Shown one piece after another: positions 6,305-64,000 of a stretch of 64,000 nucleotides of DNA. Origin of the DNA: Desulfogranum japonicum DSM 18378 (GTDB taxonomy: Bacteria > Desulfobacterota > Desulfobulbia > Desulfobulbales > Desulfobulbaceae); NCBI RefSeq assembly GCF_000429945.1, contig NZ_AUCV01000021.1, positions 45,710 to 109,709 of the forward strand, read 5' to 3'. Position 1 is the first letter of the stretch. The number at the start of each line of letters is the position of its first letter. Position numbers and translations under genes: made by a program. The notes under the pieces are model-generated. The model worked only from the letters and a program-made list of their open reading frames with translations, ran no database searches and was not told the DNA's origin.

Positions 6305-7266
6305 TTCTTCTGCTCCGGTCCAAAATATTTCAGTTGCGGCGGATCCAGTGCCACCTTGGTATCCGGCCCCACGGACTTGGTCAACCACACGTTACCTCCG
6401 ATAACCGAACGTGCACCAACTACCGTATCACCGCCCAGGATGGTGGCATTGGAATAAATTATTACATCATCTTCTATGGTAGGATGACGTTTCACATTAC
6501 GCAGCTTCTTACCTGCATCCTTGGGCAGCGAGAGAGCTCCCAGAGTCACGCCCTGATAAATACGGACCCGACTGCCGATCTTACAGGTTGCTCCAATAAC
6601 CACACCGGCGCCATGATCTATAAAAAAGGAGCCACCAATTGACGCTCCGGGATTTATATCTATGGCTGTACGATGAAAAGCGTATTCGCTCATGATACGA
6701 GGAATTATTGGAACCTCCATGGTGTTCAGCACATGGGCGACACGATAAATCATGGTGGCAAACAGGCCGGGATAACTGAAAATAACTTCATCGCGGTGTG
6801 CTGCTGCCGGGTCACCTGTCAAGGTTGCCTCAATGTCTGATTCGAGCAAATTTCGAATTTCAGGTAAACAGCTGATCAGTTCCGATGCCAGTTCAAAACT
6901 TCGTTCTCCACACTTTGTACACACCTGGTTATGCCGAAAACAGTCGTGACGGATGGCTGAACCGATCTGGTCGGCCAGGTTTTCCTGCAACAGGCTGAGC
7001 TCCTGCCCCAAATAATAGTGCAAATTGTTGGGACGCAAAACCATGGAGGTAAAATATCCGGGAAAGAGAATGCGCTGCATCTGCTCAACCAGCTCTATCA
7101 CCTCACTCTTCGAAGGTATTGCAACAGGCTCGATATGACTTGCCCATCGTCCGCTTTTAAATCCTTCCGCCAGTGCCTCCACCACCTCGGGAACCGGATC
7201 AGTACCAGTACTGTCCGTTACCGCTTCACTGTTGCAGGTTCCTGGCAGGATATCTTGTTCTCCCAT
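6301..7266 (-). CDS. cysE: serine O-acetyltransferase (long form)
   Basis: 321 residues. The C-terminal half carries left-handed beta-helix hexapeptides and the SAT signature ([31 protein letters not shown], then VTLGALS). The N-terminal 120 residues are longer than in E. coli CysE, as in the long SAT forms of many anaerobes. It acetylates serine to O-acetylserine for CysK, whose start overlaps its stop. No leader or riboswitch was recognised upstream. Confidence 0.9.
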
Positions 7267-7345
7267 AATATACTACGTCCTTAAAGTTAGGCGAATGACC
7301 AACTACCCACAGGGGAGAAAGACAATCTTAAAAATTCCCCGTATT

Positions 7346-7366
7346 GGCACCGCGTTACAGGGTGCC
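7346..7366 (-). terminator. hairpin downstream of metW
   Basis: Inverted arms GGCACC (7346-7351) and GGTGCC (7361-7366) lie after the metW stop and before cysE. On the minus strand a T-rich stretch follows at about 7326-7337. A longer imperfect pairing (CCCGTATT with AATACGGG at 7406-7413) surrounds it. It would separate the methionine and cysteine units. Confidence 0.45.
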
Positions 7367-7462
7367 TGAAATTTTCGCTAGACCTCTGGTGCAGCGCATC
7401 CAAAAATACGGGAGCCAGTATGGTCGCGGAAAGATCAAGTGCACTGTGAGCAGTTTCGCGAA

Positions 7463-8092
7463 TTACACTTGTTCCAACATCATAATTCCATAGGTTGCCC
7501 TGATATTTTTCAGGTACCGTACGGTGTTTCCTTTTACATCCCGCTGATGGGTATTGATAGCGACTTCCCTGACGATGCGGACCTTGATCATACGAAGAAA
7601 ACGCTTAAAGTCACGGATCGACATCACCCGGATATTAGGCGTGTTATACCATTCGTAAGGCAGCTGATCGGTGACCGGAGCAATGCCCTGAAACAGAATC
7701 TGCATACGGCATGACCAATGTGCAAAGTTGGGAAAGCTGACTATGACCCGCTTTCCTATACGCAGGAGATCTGTCAGCAAATTTTTTGGATCAGTTACCT
7801 GCTGCAGAGTCTGACTGAGAATAACAAGGTCAAAGCAGTCCTTGGGGTAATCCCGTACTTCTTCGAGAAAATCTCCCTGAAGAACAGTGAGCCCTCTTTC
7901 AATGCAGCAGGCTACTTTTTCTTCACTCAACTCAATCCCGGTTCCTTTGACCTGTTTCTGTTCCCGCAGATGCGAAAGCAAATCACCTTTTCCACACCCG
8001 AGATCCAGAACGCGGGTATGCGGATCCACCCACGAGGCTATCACCTGCAGGTCAAAACGCATTGCCGGGCTTTTCAAATCAGCATTGCTCAT
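7463..8092 (-). CDS. metW: MetW methyltransferase-like methionine biosynthesis protein
   Basis: 209 residues with the SAM-binding motif VLDLGCGKGDLL near residue 24 and the MetW-specific C-terminal region (FPNFAHWSCRMQILFQG, LPYEWYNTPNIR). MetW works with MetX in homoserine acylation in many proteobacteria. Its start overlaps the metX 3' end by 14 bp, the usual metX-metW order. Confidence 0.9.
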   Translation of the reverse strand: MSNADLKSPAMRFDLQVIASWVDPHTRVLDLGCGKGDLLSHLREQKQVKGTGIELSEEKVACCIERGLTVLQGDFLEEVRDYPKDCFDLVILSQTLQQVTDPKNLLTDLLRIGKRVIVSFPNFAHWSCRMQILFQGIAPVTDQLPYEWYNTPNIRVMSIRDFKRFLRMIKVRIVREVAINTHQRDVKGNTVRYLKNIRATYGIMMLEQV

Positions 8093-9215
8093 GGTATACC
8101 CGCTCCAGAAAACCGCTTATCACGCTTTGTAAACGCCCATTGGGAATTAAAAAGGCATCGTGCCCCCATTGCGCTTCAATTTCACAAAAGCTGACATCGC
8201 TTCCGTTTTTTTTCAATGCTGACACCAGATTTTTGGCCTGGTACGTGGGATACAGCCAGTCCGAGGTAAAAGAGATAACAAGAAACGATACATCAGCGAG
8301 TTGTTCATTGACGAGCAGGGATCCTTCACTCCCCTGCAGATCAAAATAATCAGCAGCTTTGGTTATATACAACAAAGAGTTGGCATCAAACCTGTCTACG
8401 AATTTTTTTCCCTGATAGCGAAGATAACTTTCCACTTCAAAATCGCCGTCAAAGGCAAAAGAAAAGGCTGAGCGATGCAGACGTCGACCGAACTTCTCCC
8501 GCATGGCATCATCTGAGAGATAGGTCACATGACCTATCATACGTGCGACTGCAAGACCATGAGCGGGCCCCTGCCCTTCATAGTAGTTCCCTCCATTCCA
8601 ATCAGGGTCAGCCATGATGGCCTGACGTGCGACCTCGTTAAAAGCAATGGCCTGGGCTGAATGACGTGCCGTTGTCGCCAGGGGAATGGCTGCACCTATC
8701 ATTTGAGGATAGTCGGCACACCAACGAAGAACCTGCATCCCTCCCACGGAGCCACCTATAACGCACAGCAACTTTGTAATACCCAGATGATTGATCAAAT
8801 GCTTCTGGGCTGCAACCATGTCTTTAATGGTCACCATGGGAAAGCTCAATCCATAGGGTTTTCCCGTTGCCGGATTTGTTGAGGAAGGCCCGGTTGAACC
8901 AGCACAACTCCCCAGGATATTGGAACAGACTACAAAAAATTTCTCTGTATCAATGGGTTTGCCTGGGCCGACCATGAAATCCCACCATCCCGGTCGTTCA
9001 TCTTCTTCACTGTAATATCCAGCCACATGGGAATCCCCTGAAAAGGCATGCAGGATAAGTATTGCATTGGATCGGGCTTTGTTGAGTTCCCCTATGGTTT
9101 CATAGGCCAGGGTTATGGGGCCTAGCTGTGCACCACAATCCAACTGCAACAGATCCGGGGATTGGGCAAAGGTGAAATATTCTCGGTTAACAAGAAGCTT
9201 GTTGGATGAAGACAT
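8079..9215 (-). CDS. metX: homoserine O-acetyltransferase
   Basis: 378 residues of the alpha/beta-hydrolase fold, starting at MSSSNKLLVNREY; upstream in-frame codons lack support. The nucleophile elbow is GGSVGGMQVLRW, and the catalytic Asp and His fit SFTSDWLYP and EAQWGHDAFLIP near the C terminus. It activates homoserine for direct sulfhydrylation. The family can use succinyl-CoA instead, and specificity cannot be read with certainty. It overlaps metW. Confidence 0.9.
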   Translation of the reverse strand: MSSSNKLLVNREYFTFAQSPDLLQLDCGAQLGPITLAYETIGELNKARSNAILILHAFSGDSHVAGYYSEEDERPGWWDFMVGPGKPIDTEKFFVVCSNILGSCAGSTGPSSTNPATGKPYGLSFPMVTIKDMVAAQKHLINHLGITKLLCVIGGSVGGMQVLRWCADYPQMIGAAIPLATTARHSAQAIAFNEVARQAIMADPDWNGGNYYEGQGPAHGLAVARMIGHVTYLSDDAMREKFGRRLHRSAFSFAFDGDFEVESYLRYQGKKFVDRFDANSLLYITKAADYFDLQGSEGSLLVNEQLADVSFLVISFTSDWLYPTYQAKNLVSALKKNGSDVSFCEIEAQWGHDAFLIPNGRLQSVISGFLERVYHEQC

Positions 9216-34885: not shown

Positions 34886-35332
34886 ATGTGGATGAGAAGA
34901 CATGATTTTGAAAGTTTATTTGAGCCCATGCATTTTTTCAGAACACGCCTTGGCCATGTGCTAGATGAGTTTGACCGGGTCTATACACATGGCACCCCTT
35001 GGCAAGCTGCTGGAAACTATCCGAAAACCAATATGGTTGATACCGGAGAAACACTGGAAATTGTTGCCGAATTGCCAGGCCTGCAAAAAGAAGACCTGGC
35101 TATCAAAATCCAGGGAAATTACCTGGCCATCAGTGGTAAAAGCAGCAACACGGTTCCCGAGGGGTACAGTATTCAGCGGTCAGAGCGCGGAGAAAAATCA
35201 TTCAGCCGAAGCTTTACATTACCCTATGAGGTGAATTCAGAAAAAGCTACAGCAAGTCTAAAAGATGGCTTGTTAAAACTGACACTGCCGAAATCTGAGG
35301 CAGCCAAGCCAAGACAGATAACCATCAACTGA
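34886..35332 (+). CDS. Hsp20/alpha-crystallin small heat shock protein
   Basis: 148 residues; strong GGAGG before the ATG. The alpha-crystallin domain (about 50-140) is typical: VDTGETLEIVAELPGLQKEDLAIKIQGNYLAISG and the closing GLLKLTLPKSE. It should form oligomers that hold unfolding proteins in the cytoplasm. First of two tandem hsp20 genes with a shared C-terminal pattern (SE-x-AKPRQI). Confidence 0.92.
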   Translation: MWMRRHDFESLFEPMHFFRTRLGHVLDEFDRVYTHGTPWQAAGNYPKTNMVDTGETLEIVAELPGLQKEDLAIKIQGNYLAISGKSSNTVPEGYSIQRSERGEKSFSRSFTLPYEVNSEKATASLKDGLLKLTLPKSEAAKPRQITIN

Positions 35333-35462
35333 TGGATGAATTGACAACGCGTTTACAGGGTCACGCCTGCAATGCAATACCACCAAATTGTGCAGGATAA
35401 TACAGGTCATTCAGATGAAAAATTGACCGACGTTGATGGAACACAGGAAGGAGGAAAAATAT

Positions 35463-35852
35463 ATGAGTACAGGTAAAGACGTGGCCACAACCACACAACA
35501 TGAAGTAGCAAAGCCCTCACAGTCTCTGACTGTGGTTACACCAGCTGTTGATATTTTGGAAAATGATCATGAAATTCTTGTACACGCAGAAATGCCTGGA
35601 GTACTCAAAGACGATATCGTGATCCATATTGACAACGGCAAATTGTTTGTTTCAGGAGAACGAAAACTAGTTTCTACAGGGACATCGGCATGGCAGGAAT
35701 TTGGTGACGTTGAATTTCGACGTACCTTTGCCATTCCTCAGACCATTGATGTGGAAAAGGTTCAAGCGCATCTTAAAGACGGCGTCCTGGAACTGCATCT
35801 GTCAAAATCAGAGACAGCAAAACCCAGGCAGATAGAAATACAGGCTAATTAA
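35463..35852 (+). CDS. Hsp20/alpha-crystallin small heat shock protein, second copy
   Basis: 129 residues from the ATG after GGAGG; an upstream in-frame ATG is less likely. The alpha-crystallin domain (about 30-125) has VDILENDHEILVHAEMPGVLKDDIVIHIDNGKLFVSGE. It shares the end KSETAKPRQIEI with the first copy but differs in the N terminus, as in paired class A and B sHSPs that form mixed oligomers. A terminator follows at 35909. Confidence 0.92.
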   Translation: MSTGKDVATTTQHEVAKPSQSLTVVTPAVDILENDHEILVHAEMPGVLKDDIVIHIDNGKLFVSGERKLVSTGTSAWQEFGDVEFRRTFAIPQTIDVEKVQAHLKDGVLELHLSKSETAKPRQIEIQAN

Positions 35853-35908
35853 TTTACACCTGCATCAGCCGGATTCCTCAAACTGGCTACGAAAAAAGCA
35901 ATACACCA

Positions 35909-35939
35909 GGGGCGTCATCAATGATGCCCCCTTTTTTTT
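35909..35939 (+). terminator. rho-independent terminator after the hsp20 pair
   Basis: GGGGCGTCAT (35909-35918) and ATGATGCCCC (35921-35930) with a two-base loop and one G-T pair, followed by C and T8. The 325 bases from here to the next gene are AT-rich with nothing else recognised. Confidence 0.9.
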
Positions 35940-55153: not shown

Positions 55154-56250
55154 TCGGGTAGCCGGATAATGAATCTTTACCCATAGATCTTTGATAGAAA
55201 GCAAACCTTGAGTCTTAAGCCATTGCTTAGTCATTCCAGACAGAGTTGCCAATGTGTGGGATAATCTCCACGGGCCTTTCCGACTCAAGCCGACCGAGAT
55301 GGCAGTTCGCAGGAAAGTCCCGAGCTTGATCAGCTCACGCCCCTTGGTGCGACAGTAACGCCACTGTTTCAGGTAGCACATGCGTACCCTGCGACGTAGC
55401 CAGTGGTCGAGTTCGGGTATTGGTCGATACAGCTCCGATATCCCGTAATACCCCATCCAGCCACGTAAATACTCTGCCAATTTGAACAGTCGATAGTCCA
55501 TGGAAACACCCAACTCCGTCCGGTCAACTCCTTGATGCGCTTTTTAAAGCGCACAAAGGCCTTGTCCGACCAACGGATCTTGGCACCAGTAAAGGAAAAA
55601 CCGAGGAAGGTGATCTCGTTGGTGTGAGCCACCTTGCTCTTCTCCTGGTTGACTTTGAGCTTGAGCTTCTTTTCCAGGAACCGGCTAATGCTCGCCATCA
55701 CCCGCTCACCCGCCCGACGACTCTTCACCAAAATGACGAAATCATCGGCATAGCGTGCGAAGCGGTGGCTTCGCCCCTCCAGTTCCTTGTCCAACTCATC
55801 CAGGAGGATATTACTAAGCAGTGGTGAGAACGGGCCACCTTGGGGAACACCTTCACGGGTCTCGTGAAGGCGGCCACCTATTACCACTCCTGCTTGCAGG
55901 TATGTACCGATCAACTTCAAAACACGCTTGTCGCGCACCTTTCTACTGACCCGGGCTATAAGCACATCGTGCTCCACCGTGTCGAAAAACTTCGCCAGGT
56001 CACAAATCGACAGCCACGCGTACCCCTCGCGGATGTAGTGACGGACCTGATACACGGCATCGTGGGCTGACAGTTCCTTACGAAATCCAAAGTTTATTTC
56101 CAAAAAAACAAGGTCGAATATTGGCACCAGGACCTGGACAGACAAGCGCAGACTTCGATGTCCTGTTGAATCAAGTGATCAAGGACAGCAGGTATCCCCA
56201 GAAGACGAGTACTCCCTGTTGCCTTTGGGATCTCTACCCGTTTGACCGGT
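55148..56250 (-). pseudogene. group II intron reverse transcriptase/maturase, broken
   Basis: In pieces on the minus strand: VKRVEIPKATGSTRLLGIP (from 56250), then after a frameshift near 56150 the RT palm with FGFRKELSAHDAV and FARYADDFVILVKS (YADD catalytic motif), then after a second frameshift near 55505 the maturase end GWMGYYGISELYRPIPELDHWL. The N terminus is lost at a junction with a 55-bp repeat. Two frameshifts and truncation make activity impossible as written. Confidence 0.88.
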
Positions 56251-60712: not shown

Positions 60713-62244
60713 ATGACTCTTGACTCTCGCCTCTCTCGCATAGATCAAAACAGATTAAGCATAACTAATCCTTATGGGGTAGCTGCAACTTTATTTGCAA
60801 ATGAAGATGTTCCTGTAGACGCTTCATCTATTTCTGAACTCATTGAGCTTCTCGAAATAAAAAAACTATCGAAAGAGTGGCAGAGAGTACACCTGAAAGC
60901 TTTGGTGTCGTCCCCAAAATATCTCATATCGCACTTACTCCGGATTTTCATAAAGGCAAAGGTATCCCTGTAGGAACTGTACTGGCAACACAAGGTTTCA
61001 TCGTTCCACAGGCAATTGGGAATGACATAAACTGTGGTATGCGCTTACACGCTACTTCTCTCTCTGCTGATCAAATAAAGGCAAACCTGGACAAACTTGA
61101 AACAGTATTTAGGCGCATTTTTTTTGAAGGTGGTCGCAATATTCCGATGTCGAGAGCGCAACGTGAGGCGCTCTTCAAAAATGGAATTACAGGGTTGCTT
61201 GATGCAACCCCCAAAAGCTTAATGGATGGTCTTTGGTCATTATTTCATAATCTTAATATAGAAAACGATCTTAATTCTATTTCGCAAAAAGGAAGCTTGA
61301 AAGCAAAGTCAACCTTCGGGCTTAATGATTTTCTTGGCCCAGCGGACCGTCTTTCTCGAGATAGTCAGATAGGAAGCATCGGGGGAGGAAATCATTTTGT
61401 AGAAATCCAATACGTAAAAAGTATCATTAATGGATCTATTGCTCATGCTTGGGGGCTAAAGCCTGGTATGGTCACAGTAATGGTTCATACTGGTTCTGTG
61501 GCTGTGGGCCACCTAAGCGGTAATTTTTACAACGATCTTGTTCGAAAAATATATCCTCAAAGTCTTAAATATCCCTCAAATAATATATTTCCATTGCCTG
61601 TTGGATTGAAATATCAAAAAGAGGTTGAGCAATTCTGGGATGCTCTAGCCAATGCAGCTAACTTTGCATTTGCAAACCGACTTTTTCTTGCAATTATGGC
61701 TCTTGATGCCTTACAAAACAATTTTGGTCAAGTTGAGTTTTCATTAATCTACGACTCACCACACAATTTAGTATGGAGAGAAACAATTAATGGTGAAAGT
61801 TGTTTTATACACAGGAAAGGTGCTTGCCCTGCTAACGGATTGAATGAAATGGTAAATACGCCATTTGAGTATTATGGAGAACCAGTAATGGTTCCAGGGT
61901 CTATGGGAGCCAGTAGCTATTTGTTAGCTGGGCAAGGCAATCAAGAGTCAATCCGTAGTGCTAGTCACGGAGCTGGCAGGGTTTTATCGAGAGGAAAAGC
62001 CCTAAAAGGATATGAAGCTGAATTTAAAAGGTTTTTAAAAAATTTTAGAGTAGTAACTCCTGTTGATCTGAGGAGACCCGATATCAAGTTAAGAAAAGAT
62101 ATTGTCCTGCAAAAATTTGCTGATATAAAACAAGAAGCTCCTTTTGCTTATAAAGGTATCACCCCCATTGTTGAAACTCTTTCTGGGGCTGGGATAGCAA
62201 CACCAGTTGTAGAACTGGAGCCCTTAATGACAATTAAAGGATGA
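60713..62244 (+). CDS. rtcB: RtcB-family RNA ligase split over two frames by an A7 run
   Basis: The first 51 codons (from 60713) are in one frame; after the A7 run at 60859-60865 the -1 frame (from 60865) gives 459 residues, 510 in all. Joined, the text reads ELLEIKKTIERVAESTPESFGVVPKISHIALTPDFHKG, a normal RtcB N-terminal region. All metal- and GMP-binding residues are present: Cys in NDINCGMRL, His in GGGNHFVEI, VHTGSVAVGH, DSPHNLVWRE, and the GMP-linked His in SHGAGRVLSRG. A GTG start at 60877 gives a shorter 455-residue product. RtcB joins 3'-phosphate or 2',3'-cyclic phosphate RNA ends to 5'-OH ends. Either recoding, a recent mutation or a read error. Confidence 0.82.
60859..60865 (+). 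promoter_or_regulatory. candidate -1 slippage site in rtcB
   Basis: ATA AAA AAA CTA in the zero frame: a run of seven A. Slipping back one base gives ACT ATC GAA, which is the frame of the RtcB body. Transcript slippage by one A would have the same effect. A downstream stimulatory structure was not identified. Confidence 0.5.
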
Positions 62245-62786: not shown

Positions 62787-63413
62787 ATGAATAAAATTTC
62801 TATAACAAGGGCTTTGGTAGAATTAAAGACCTTGGATAAAAGAATTCAAAAAATTTTGGAAAACTTGGAACCCGTAACAATCCTGACAGGCAGCAAAATG
62901 GAAGTCGGCATTAAAAGCAAAGAAGATTTTGAAAAAAACACCAAATCTTCATATCAAAGCCTTACAGATCTTATCGAAAGAAAAAGGAAAATTAAGTCAG
63001 CCGTTGTCAAGTCCAACGCAACTACAGAAATTTATGTAGCAAATGAAAAAATGACTGTTGCGGAAGCAATTGAGAGAAAAAGTTCTATTGAAACAGAAAA
63101 AAATATTAGAAAATGTTTAGCAGAAAAATATTTTAAAAAAATCAAACAGGTTGAAAATCACAATGCAAATATCAAAAGCCAGCTTTTTAAATTATTGCAA
63201 GCTACTTATTCAAAACCTGAGACTGAAATATCAAAAGATGATTACGACAGGATTGCAGTTCCGTTTAAAGAAAATAATGAAGCAAAGCTCATTGACCCTC
63301 TTGAAATAAAAAATAAACTACAGTCAATTGAAGAGCAGATTGATATTTTTGAATCGGAAGTGGATATTGCTTTAACAGAATCAAATTCAAGAACTGAAAT
63401 TGAGATTTTATGA
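62787..63413 (+). CDS. phage-type coiled-coil protein of unknown function
   Basis: 208 residues, very AT-rich and lysine-rich. AAAGGGAATG precedes the ATG. The segment VVKSNATTEIYVANEKMTVAEAIERKSSIE recalls a small helical family (DIP1984-like) often found in large tailed phages. Two long coiled-coil regions (about 10-60 and 90-140; 170-200). Base composition marks it as foreign. It lies 90 bp before the permuted tRNA. Confidence 0.55.
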   Translation: MNKISITRALVELKTLDKRIQKILENLEPVTILTGSKMEVGIKSKEDFEKNTKSSYQSLTDLIERKRKIKSAVVKSNATTEIYVANEKMTVAEAIERKSSIETEKNIRKCLAEKYFKKIKQVENHNANIKSQLFKLLQATYSKPETEISKDDYDRIAVPFKENNEAKLIDPLEIKNKLQSIEEQIDIFESEVDIALTESNSRTEIEIL

Positions 63414-63502
63414 TTTCAGCAGTTTTTGATACGAAGAAAAAATAATGCGCATATGGCTGACCATACGAAAGTCGTTAAAAATCGGACCCGGCTCGGGGTT
63501 AA

Positions 63503-63621
63503 GAGCATCATGCATAGGGACCGGTGGTATTTTTATACCGTACAGGTTAAAATCCTGTCTTGCGATTATATCGTGAGTGGCGGAATGGCAGACGCGCCGG
63601 TTGCATTCACTTTGAAAGCTC
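63503..63621 (+). tRNA. circularly permuted tRNA-Leu (3' half before 5' half)
   Basis: 3' half: anticodon stem ACCGG (63520-63524), variable arm GGTAT-TTTT-ATACC (63526-63539), T stem ACAGG/CCTGT with loop TTAAAAT (63542-63558), acceptor CTTGCGA (63559-63565). Spacer TTATA. 5' half: acceptor TCGTGAG (63571-63577), TG, D stem GCG/CGC with GG in the loop (63580-63595), G, anticodon stem CCGGT (63597-63601). The halves pair: acceptor 7/7 (two G-T), anticodon stem 5/5. The class II variable arm and D-arm text are those of tRNA-Leu. Outside, ATGCA (63510-63514) pairs with TGCAT (63602-63606) and GAGC (63503) with GCTC (63618). TAGGG before ACCGG fits anticodon UAG plus positions 37-38. No CCA, and the canonical U33 is absent. 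Confidence 0.75.
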
Positions 63622-63699
63622 AAAATCCAAATCTCAGTTTTCAGTTTTCAGATGTCATGATTCAAAGCTTAAAATGGGGAGCATCCGATGACTATGGCA

Positions 63700-64000
63700 T
63701 CATTTGACGACGCGGAGTCTCTTTTCTCTGGTAACTCTTTTACCTTTGGTCTTTTCCTCATATCCATCAAAAAATGAGTCAAATTTAGAATTGTATTTGG
63801 CGCAGCGCAGTTTCAAAATATTATTGGCGTAGTCCACCTTCCACCAGGCACCGGATCTTTTAAGTCGAATATTGCTGATGAACTTATTGGCACTTTCAAT
63901 TGCCCCGCTACCAAGAGGATAGCCTCCTCGCCGCAACCGGCCATATTCAATTCTATCTTTATTTTTCTTTAGGTAATTGACCAGTGTAGCTCTCTCTGTT
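63700..64000 (-). mobile_element. ISKra4-family transposase, C-terminal end, runs off the window
   Basis: Minus-strand frame open to the window edge. It has YGRLRRGGYPLGSGAIESANKFISNIRLKRSGAWW and ANNILKLRCAKYN, the C-terminal signature of ISKra4 transposases. The start is outside the window. It bounds the permuted tRNA region on the right. Confidence 0.8.

Follow-up and report, generated by a model that had tools for sequence, protein, structure and literature searches.

A tRNA-Leu with swapped halves as the likely arm of a predicted noncoding RNA downstream of a PHROG 1491 gene

In tmRNA, the anticodon side of the tRNA part runs into the body of the molecule. Two features of permuted tmRNA (RF04321) recur in the locus described here: the acceptor of the precursor forms a hairpin, and the body joins the tRNA part at the site of the anticodon stem. 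Permuted tRNA genes, of which 34 had been counted in six algae and one archaeon as of 2014, resemble it in placing the 3' half first, in a break at the anticodon loop and in a short sequence between the acceptor strands (PMC3978253). The bacterial Y RNA YrlA likewise combines a closing stem of the RNA's ends with a tRNA-like part that has D, T and acceptor arms (PMC8394870). GOLLD and ROOL, too, are structured RNAs; they occur in phages and prophages, frequently close to tRNA islands, and the linkers of GOLLD sometimes hold tRNAs (PMC12286853). These four are the nearest known systems, and each fails at least one defining feature.

The locus lies near the end of a 64,000-nucleotide stretch of Desulfogranum japonicum DNA that was analysed as a whole (hereafter the window; contig C17). 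Unlike the algal and archaeal permuted genes, its tRNA is an arm of a larger predicted RNA, its hosts are a bacterium and phages, and the window copy is without A73, CCA and anticodon loop. Unlike YrlA, the RNA has about 320 nt, an extra conserved 3' domain, exchangeable tRNA parts and another neighbour gene, and no Ro60 was found in the host genome; unlike tmRNA, it has the D and anticodon stems of a full tRNA, the acceptor in the window is without A73 and CCA, and no Rfam tmRNA model matches. It differs from GOLLD and ROOL in that the predicted RNA is smaller, lies beside a conserved protein gene and has a permuted tRNA part, and the Rfam models of these families gave no match in the window or in 28 loci (8 + 20, one of which, L006, is unrelated). 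We consider it likely, with a probability of roughly 0.7, that the swapped tRNA-Leu is an arm, joined through its anticodon stem, of a predicted noncoding RNA of about 320 nt that follows a gene of the PHROG 1491 family, and that it acts as a tRNA mimic and not as a source of mature tRNA.

The earlier note on this DNA had proposed a class II tRNA-Leu whose 3' half precedes its 5' half with TTATA between them, and the order and the coordinates both hold. As read from the window sequence, a cloverleaf with swapped halves occupies 63520-63601 on the plus strand, and all of its stems form completely when the halves are rejoined (Table 1). It is a true circular permutation, opened at the anticodon loop and situated in mobile bacterial DNA. 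An outer helix of ATGCA with TGCAT around a TAGGG bulge, also described there, is present in the window, whereas its only close relative (locus L004) retains just GCA/TGC. The window copy has no A73, no CCA and no anticodon loop that could be closed without processing.

Table 1. Features of the predicted RNA, its neighbouring gene and the interrupting element, in window coordinates.
Feature	Position	Strand	Remarks
208-aa protein gene, PHROG 1491 family	62787-63413	+	profile E 1.3e-57, residues 1-207 of 208
P1, 5' strand of predicted closing helix	63453-63465	+	partner TATGGTCAGCCAT on contig C32 (L164 478-490), 13/13 pairs; also in L004 and phages
CGAAA, conserved junction right after P1	63466-63470	+	YGWA after 25/29 P1 helices scoring at least 10
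Small hairpin CCCG-GCT-CGGG, 5' domain	63487-63497	+	hairpin at the same place in the L004 fold
Outer extension of anticodon stem, ATGCA	63510-63514	+	partner TGCAT 63602-63606; TAGGG bulge 63515-63519; only 3 pairs in L004
Anticodon stem, 3' strand ACCGG	63520-63524	+	window sequence
Variable arm, class II tRNA-Leu type	63526-63539	+	5/5 pairs
T arm ACAGG-TTAAAAT-CCTGT	63542-63558	+	5/5 pairs; A replaces C56
Acceptor helix, closed hairpin CTTGCGA-TTATA-TCGTGAG	63559-63577	+	7/7 pairs, two of them G-U; no A73, no CCA
Acceptor parts	63559-63565; 63566-63570; 63571-63577	+	3' strand; loop TTATA; 5' strand
D arm GCG-GAATGGCAGA-CGC	63580-63595	+	3/3 pairs
Anticodon stem, 5' strand CCGGT	63597-63601	+	5/5 pairs
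Start of AAAGCTC-like repeat region preceding the phage 3' domain	63612-63675	+	repeats by eye; ends in TTAAAAT 63669-63675
ISKra4-type insertion element, one end	63676-64000	-	inverted repeat GGGGAGCATCCGAT 63676-63689; transposase ORF 63700-63999

It is important to consider how far such an arm exceeds chance, which the earlier note had regarded as excluded by the layout itself. The layout alone is only moderately rare: dinucleotide shuffling of the 120-mer produces it 9 times in 20,000, and when the 64-kb window is scanned for structure only, there is one match on the plus strand, the permuted tRNA-Leu arm, and two on the minus strand. The folding energy of the 119-mer is unremarkable (z of −1.90, with 9 of 200 shuffles equally good); the fold of 63440-63680 has a z of −0.92 and the tRNA-like part of L004 taken alone a z of −1.44. 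Neither ARAGORN nor Rfam detects a tRNA in the 64-kb window. A tRNA-Leu profile, on the other hand, finds the 3' half (E 0.0018) and then the 5' half (E 0.0053) in L004, in swapped order, and the 5' half in the window (E 0.011), where the 3' half does not fall below E 10. The case for more than chance thus stands because a tRNA-Leu sequence in swapped order is joined by the same locus in a second genome, at 78% identity, and by recurrences in viral loci.

The second genome came from a DNA search of 96 genomes, the host's own and those of relatives, which matched three: its own, G079 (22 bases, inside an ordinary tRNA-Leu) and G047, where the match covers query positions 1-158 of 161 and again lies downstream of a 208-aa gene (L004). 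A protein of G047 (P0004) is labelled Candidatus Electrothrix scaldis, so that by label both genomes belong to the cable-bacterium family. The earlier note had allowed that related genomes might show two adjacent, merely truncated tRNA-Leu genes; L004, the sole close relative, has the permuted layout too. Compared by eye with the window, its acceptor differs by two one-sided changes and one two-sided change, and its T and anticodon stems by one change each, with pairing kept throughout. The acceptor loops, TTATA in the window and CACG in L004, leave neither A73 nor CCA, and in both copies the G19-C56 elbow pair is broken by the loss of one base (C56 has become A in the window, and the D loop of L004 is short of one G). 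Neither bacterial copy could be a normal tRNA. The whole RNA of L004 (8479-8795) folds better than all 100 of its shuffles (z of −3.33), with a minimum-energy fold that includes P1, the T and acceptor helices and the 3' stem, and in which another hairpin takes the place of the D and anticodon stems.

The larger RNA is predicted from a plan that can be read in the sequences downstream of the gene: P1, CGAAA, a small hairpin, a variable arm, AAAGCTC-like repeats, a 3' domain (AAATCC...GGCTG) and then the second strand of P1. In the window this RNA begins at 63453, just downstream of the 208-aa gene. Of 86 downstream regions, which come from 80 viral contigs and 6 named records with duplicates kept, 68 have a strict 3' motif with its pairing stem, compared with 0 of 85 upstream regions, 0 of 86 reverse complements and 2 matches at +1500 to +2000; a slightly looser motif appears in 94 of 123 downstream regions of a larger, deduplicated set. 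The P1 helix scores at least 10 in 29 of 47 nonredundant loci, all picked because their 3' stem is clear; in 40 strand-swap controls this count averages 3.4 and never exceeds 7. We discarded a looser P1 count at a score of 7 (51 of 64, against a control mean of 30.5 and maximum of 37), in which the signal is not separated from noise. The next forward ORF of at least 70 aa starts at least 150 bases past the gene in 82 of 87 loci, and terminator-like sites occur within 120 nt after the RNA in 25 of 93 cases, whereas the 120 nt that directly follow the stop codon contain one in 0 of 94.

Thirty-nine sequences went into a model of the 3' domain (R1), namely those of 35 viral contigs, three phages and one Deinococcus plasmid, with none from the bacterial family of the window. 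They belong to 45 domains picked by a stem-seeking script, of which six (L116 and L128 among them) were left out of R1, and since the selection rule demands the stem, the covariation of R1 is partly circular. R1 matches L004 at 8719-8789 (E 2.3e-7) and contig C32 of the host's own genome (L164 415-483, E 6.6e-7), in both cases where the RNA should end. Over 15 sources it gave one chance match (L067, minus strand, E 0.32) and none in the window, which ends before the 3' domain, in L006 or in L012, a Bacillus plasmid with the gene. In a further search it recovers the 3' domain in 16 of 17 loci, L179 and L184 included, with the weakest matches in L303 and L321 (E 0.008) and none in L178.

That the 3' domain of the host lies on another contig would be explained by an ISKra4-type element, which interrupts the RNA at 63676 and whose other end, followed by the 3' domain, is found on C32 (L164 373-490). 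The inverted repeats at 63676-63689 and L164 373-386 agree in 12 of 14 bases, and a 7-base target duplication, TTAAAAT, flanks the element at 63669-63675 and L164 387-393, so C17 and C32 would join at this element. The transposase match (ISKra4, E 3.4e-25) stays below the model's curated cut-off because only 99 aa lie in the window. As the element cuts an RNA of about 320 nt in two, the window copy probably no longer works.

No match to any Rfam family was obtained for the window's RNA, nor for the body of the RNA in 8 + 20 loci (the unrelated L006 included), and between 63350 and 63760 a search up to E 10 returned only five snoRNA and miRNA matches far below their cut-offs. In open-licence PMC articles we found no description of this RNA, which may be in print elsewhere; in another phage, ICP1, abundant unexplained noncoding transcripts are described (PMC7567579). 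We regard the predicted RNA as a putative new class, one whose permuted tRNA arm can be exchanged.

The neighbouring 208-aa protein belongs to a family that the PHROG 1491 profile recognises in 5 of 5 members tested, and that has 1,317 relatives at E 0.001 among 1,705 candidates. The gene is present in 701 of 50,697 phage records (T5 included) and 12 of 72,556 plasmids, but in only 2 of the 257 genomes searched in the order and in 1 of 297 sampled across the phylum. Its PHROG label, "tail fiber protein", which many records also use, seems doubtful, as neither gene context nor predicted fold suggests it. AlphaFold2 gives a helical bundle (mean pLDDT 91, pTM 0.67) whose best fold match in the PDB is the C. 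diphtheriae protein 3kdq (E 1.9e-3), which we take to be DIP1984, linked to Pfam DUF6847; the 208-aa protein is longer and falls in a separate phage family. By sequence, no relative was found in the PDB (best E 0.55), and Pfam gave weak matches among 29 family members to DUF6847 (2, best E 0.0071), DUF7310 (3, best E 8.1e-6) and LYRM2-like domains (6). Two kinds of candidate were set aside, namely L006 (Verrucomicrobia), taken for a false match, which aligns over residues 18-74 only, at 40%, in a stretch that reads like part of other genes, and 16 viral loci with the window's GACCATACGNAAGTCG pattern, which have no protein relative at E 1 and are attributed to chance.

Gene order suggests that the 208-aa protein may be the partner of the RNA. 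In 35 of 60 viral loci the surrounding 5.6 kb contain tRNA genes, which would suit a function connected with tRNA, without proving it. An rtcB gene for the RtcB RNA ligase (60877-62244, Pfam E 1.1e-95) lies upstream of the 208-aa gene in the window, with further RtcB matches at three places in the genome (C2, C8 and C12). A direct link to RtcB was rejected, given that in L004 another ORF (7044-7757), presumably for a cytidylate kinase, precedes the 208-aa gene.

A copy of the RNA is also predicted in phage T5 (AY692264). The PHROG 1491 gene of T5, at 35303-35929 on the minus strand, is unannotated in the record (L165 3001-3627), where T5p083 is drawn on the opposite strand (L165 2974-3771); in the record of a Salmonella phage, the gene's counterpart is described as similar to T5.085. 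R1 matches at L165 3912-3982 (E 9.6e-5), in a search of seven sources that gave nothing in L012 and only E 0.022 in L167. P1 with CGAAAG is readable in the T5 sequence as well, which places the predicted RNA at about 35295-34935 minus and makes it testable in a laboratory phage.

The variable arm of the RNA is where the tRNA sequences are found. A tRNA-profile scan of this arm revealed a permuted tRNA in the viral contig L128 and one in ordinary order in L125, the latter matched as a tRNA by Rfam. Canonical T arms occur in 17 of 94 arms, against a shuffle mean of 0.07 and a maximum of 1, and a strict permuted-cloverleaf detector finds 9 of 95 arms, against 3 in 9,500 shuffles. L242 is in both lists and is doubtful, lying far downstream. 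Elsewhere the strict detector gave 7 matches in 1.13 Mb, both strands counted, three of which (L179, L180 and L184) lie inside the RNA of loci without the strict 3' motif. The other forms comprise lone T arms (L099, L108, L129), tRNAs in ordinary order (L125, L252, L249) and, read by eye, a tRNA-Asn-like D and anticodon arm without T arm (L116 3121-3431). Common to the tRNA-bearing copies is a tRNA or T arm set on the RNA body, which the permuted ones join by the anticodon side. By the strict rule, 77 of 94 arms, that of T5 included, have no T arm, and so the RNA in general does not need a tRNA arm and its body can do without a tRNA.

We assembled 16 permuted domains: those of the window, L004 and 14 viral loci including Erwinia phage Simmy50 (L169, NC_041974). 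Eleven were found by the detector and five (L128, L169, L182, L186 and L321) by eye; L224 can alternatively be read with its break before the anticodon arm. The alignment, in which we assigned the cloverleaf pairs and whose members were chosen because they pair, has 92.1% of cells paired and 17 of 21 pairs changed on both sides. The covariation score is 0.717, against 0.200 in shuffles, of which 0 of 500 scored as high, for domains that are not all independent (L179 is closely related to L180, and L181 has some sequence in common with L188). For the window and L004, the alignment puts the anticodon stem in the wrong place, which counts against the structure there. Covariation between the halves, which the earlier note had wanted to see in related loci, is found. 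Since the pairing in separately captured tRNAs is inherited from the tRNA, most of this covariation is no proof of selection after capture.

A model of the permuted tRNA itself (R2) proved unsuitable as a counter, with 209 matches in 100 sources and 34 matches in 35. A number of these span the gaps between neighbouring ordinary tRNAs (e.g., L080 1359-1430 and L102 749-819), and loci with only ordinary tRNAs of the host genome match too (L050, L047 and L053), so that R2 does not count permuted tRNAs. Of four matches that we read, L185 1906-1982 (E 4e-10) and L233 889-946 (E 4.6e-14) look permuted, L326 is two ordinary tRNAs and L249 a piece of a tRNA in ordinary order. The L233 match is outside the R2 training set and lies upstream of that locus's gene; the arm there (780-1010), which precedes the PHROG 1491 gene, has a CGAAC junction and may be a second RNA copy or another gene order.

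The variety of arms raises the possibility of passive capture, in which the variable arm tolerates inserts and functionless pieces of neighbouring phage tRNA clusters land there. The nearby tRNA genes in viral loci, the several forms taken up (permuted, ordinary order, lone T arm, D plus anticodon piece) and the lost elbow contacts of the window and L004 copies are all in line with it. We nevertheless think it unlikely. The same permuted topology recurs in loci that share little sequence, and stems are kept through changes in the close relatives: the acceptors of L179 and L180, compared by eye, differ in sequence and still pair 7/7 and 6/7, and the window and L004 behave alike. On this sequence comparison, it is these two close pairs that would show a later constraint. 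The T arm is also far commoner than in shuffles, though unselected capture would give that too.

A further possibility is that the RNA resembles a permuted tmRNA, with the acceptor loop processed away, the tRNA part charged and the body in the position of the anticodon stem. The anticodon side of the tRNA part does run into the body, and in L181 and L185 the sequence includes both a discriminator base and CCA (the L185 assignment is by eye, and the script's own differs). Read by eye, the tRNA-Leu(UAG)-like arm of L185 (1824-2010) has its break in the variable region and keeps A73, CCA and the complete UAG anticodon arm; it would be the best candidate for a chargeable form. This explanation seems improbable all the same, given that the Rfam tmRNA models do not match the RNA itself (window, 8 loci and 20 loci), that A73 and CCA are missing in the window and L004, and that so many relatives (77 of 94) are without a T arm by the strict rule. 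The one tmRNA signal in its favour stands apart from the RNA: viral contig L187 has a separate match to Rfam permuted tmRNA RF04321 (677-1057, 59.6 bits), about 0.9 kb upstream of that contig's permuted arm.

The earlier note had likened the locus to the permuted tRNA genes of algae and some archaea, which are spliced through a circular precursor. On that reading the two halves would be excised and ligated within the anticodon loop, with loss of the acceptor loop. The window arm does carry its 3' half before its 5' half and forms a cloverleaf on rejoining, with the break at the anticodon loop, and in L181 and L188 the 5' half retains an intact anticodon-like loop (TAAGA-CTGCAAA, with TCTTA opposite). 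A ligase would be at hand in the RtcB encoded upstream in the window and at the three further places in the genome. A rejoined molecule with anticodon loop, discriminator and room for CCA is obtained from neither the window nor L004, and only in part from L181 and L185. The host genome has ordinary tRNA-Leu genes for the anticodons UAG, UAA, CAA, CAG and GAG, all five ending in ACCA; together with the missing A73, CCA and anticodon loop, this makes a spliced tRNA unlikely. Moreover, the tRNA sits within a conserved larger RNA and has lost its elbow pair, no RtcB was read among the ORFs directly upstream in L004, and the known permuted genes use a BHB motif and its endonuclease (PMC3978253). 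The splicing reading is thus not supported, and we regard a true permuted tRNA gene as very improbable.

A bacterial Y RNA (YrlA) acting with Ro60 and PNPase is scarcely credible: P1 and the permuted arm do place a tRNA-like part on a stem of the RNA's ends, judged from sequence, and rtcB is nearby, as YrlA occurs with an rtcBA operon in some bacteria, yet no Ro60 (TROVE) match was found in the host genome (0/1; the control matched in 1 of 14 genomes), no Rfam match exceeds its cut-off in 63350-63760, and the predicted RNA is longer than the 90-150 nt given for YrlA (PMC8394870). Permuted introns were dismissed, no Rfam family of any kind reaching its cut-off in the window.

Returning to the arm as a tRNA mimic, we envisage that the RNA would be transcribed and folded in cells as predicted, that the tRNA arm would be joined to its body through the anticodon stem and held out as a mimic, and that the arm could there engage a tRNA-binding enzyme of host or phage, as a decoy or docking handle without a cleavable anticodon loop. 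A far wider proposal, which we hold tentatively and think rather doubtful as a whole, is that an undescribed RNA-protein pair exists in hundreds of phages, including T5, and that its RNA takes up and swaps permuted tRNAs, held by the anticodon stem as decoys or handles against anticodon nucleases or to capture a tRNA enzyme, with the bacterial copy domesticated in relatives of the cable bacteria.

Permuted tRNAs have been known as rare genes; here they turn up repeatedly, in one phage after another, as an exchangeable arm of a predicted RNA next to a single conserved gene. Should the RNA prove real, it would be a new phage RNA class, present in the classic laboratory phage T5, in which one could ask directly why phages attach tRNA elbows to noncoding RNAs.

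Some minor observations concern the surroundings of the gene. In viral contig L079, a Group I intron (912-1188, Rfam, 64.8 bits) lies upstream of the PHROG 1491 gene. In the window, the minus strand at 55369-56145 encodes an RVT_1 reverse transcriptase domain (profile positions 36-204 of 205, E 8.9e-31), perhaps part of a broken group II intron protein.
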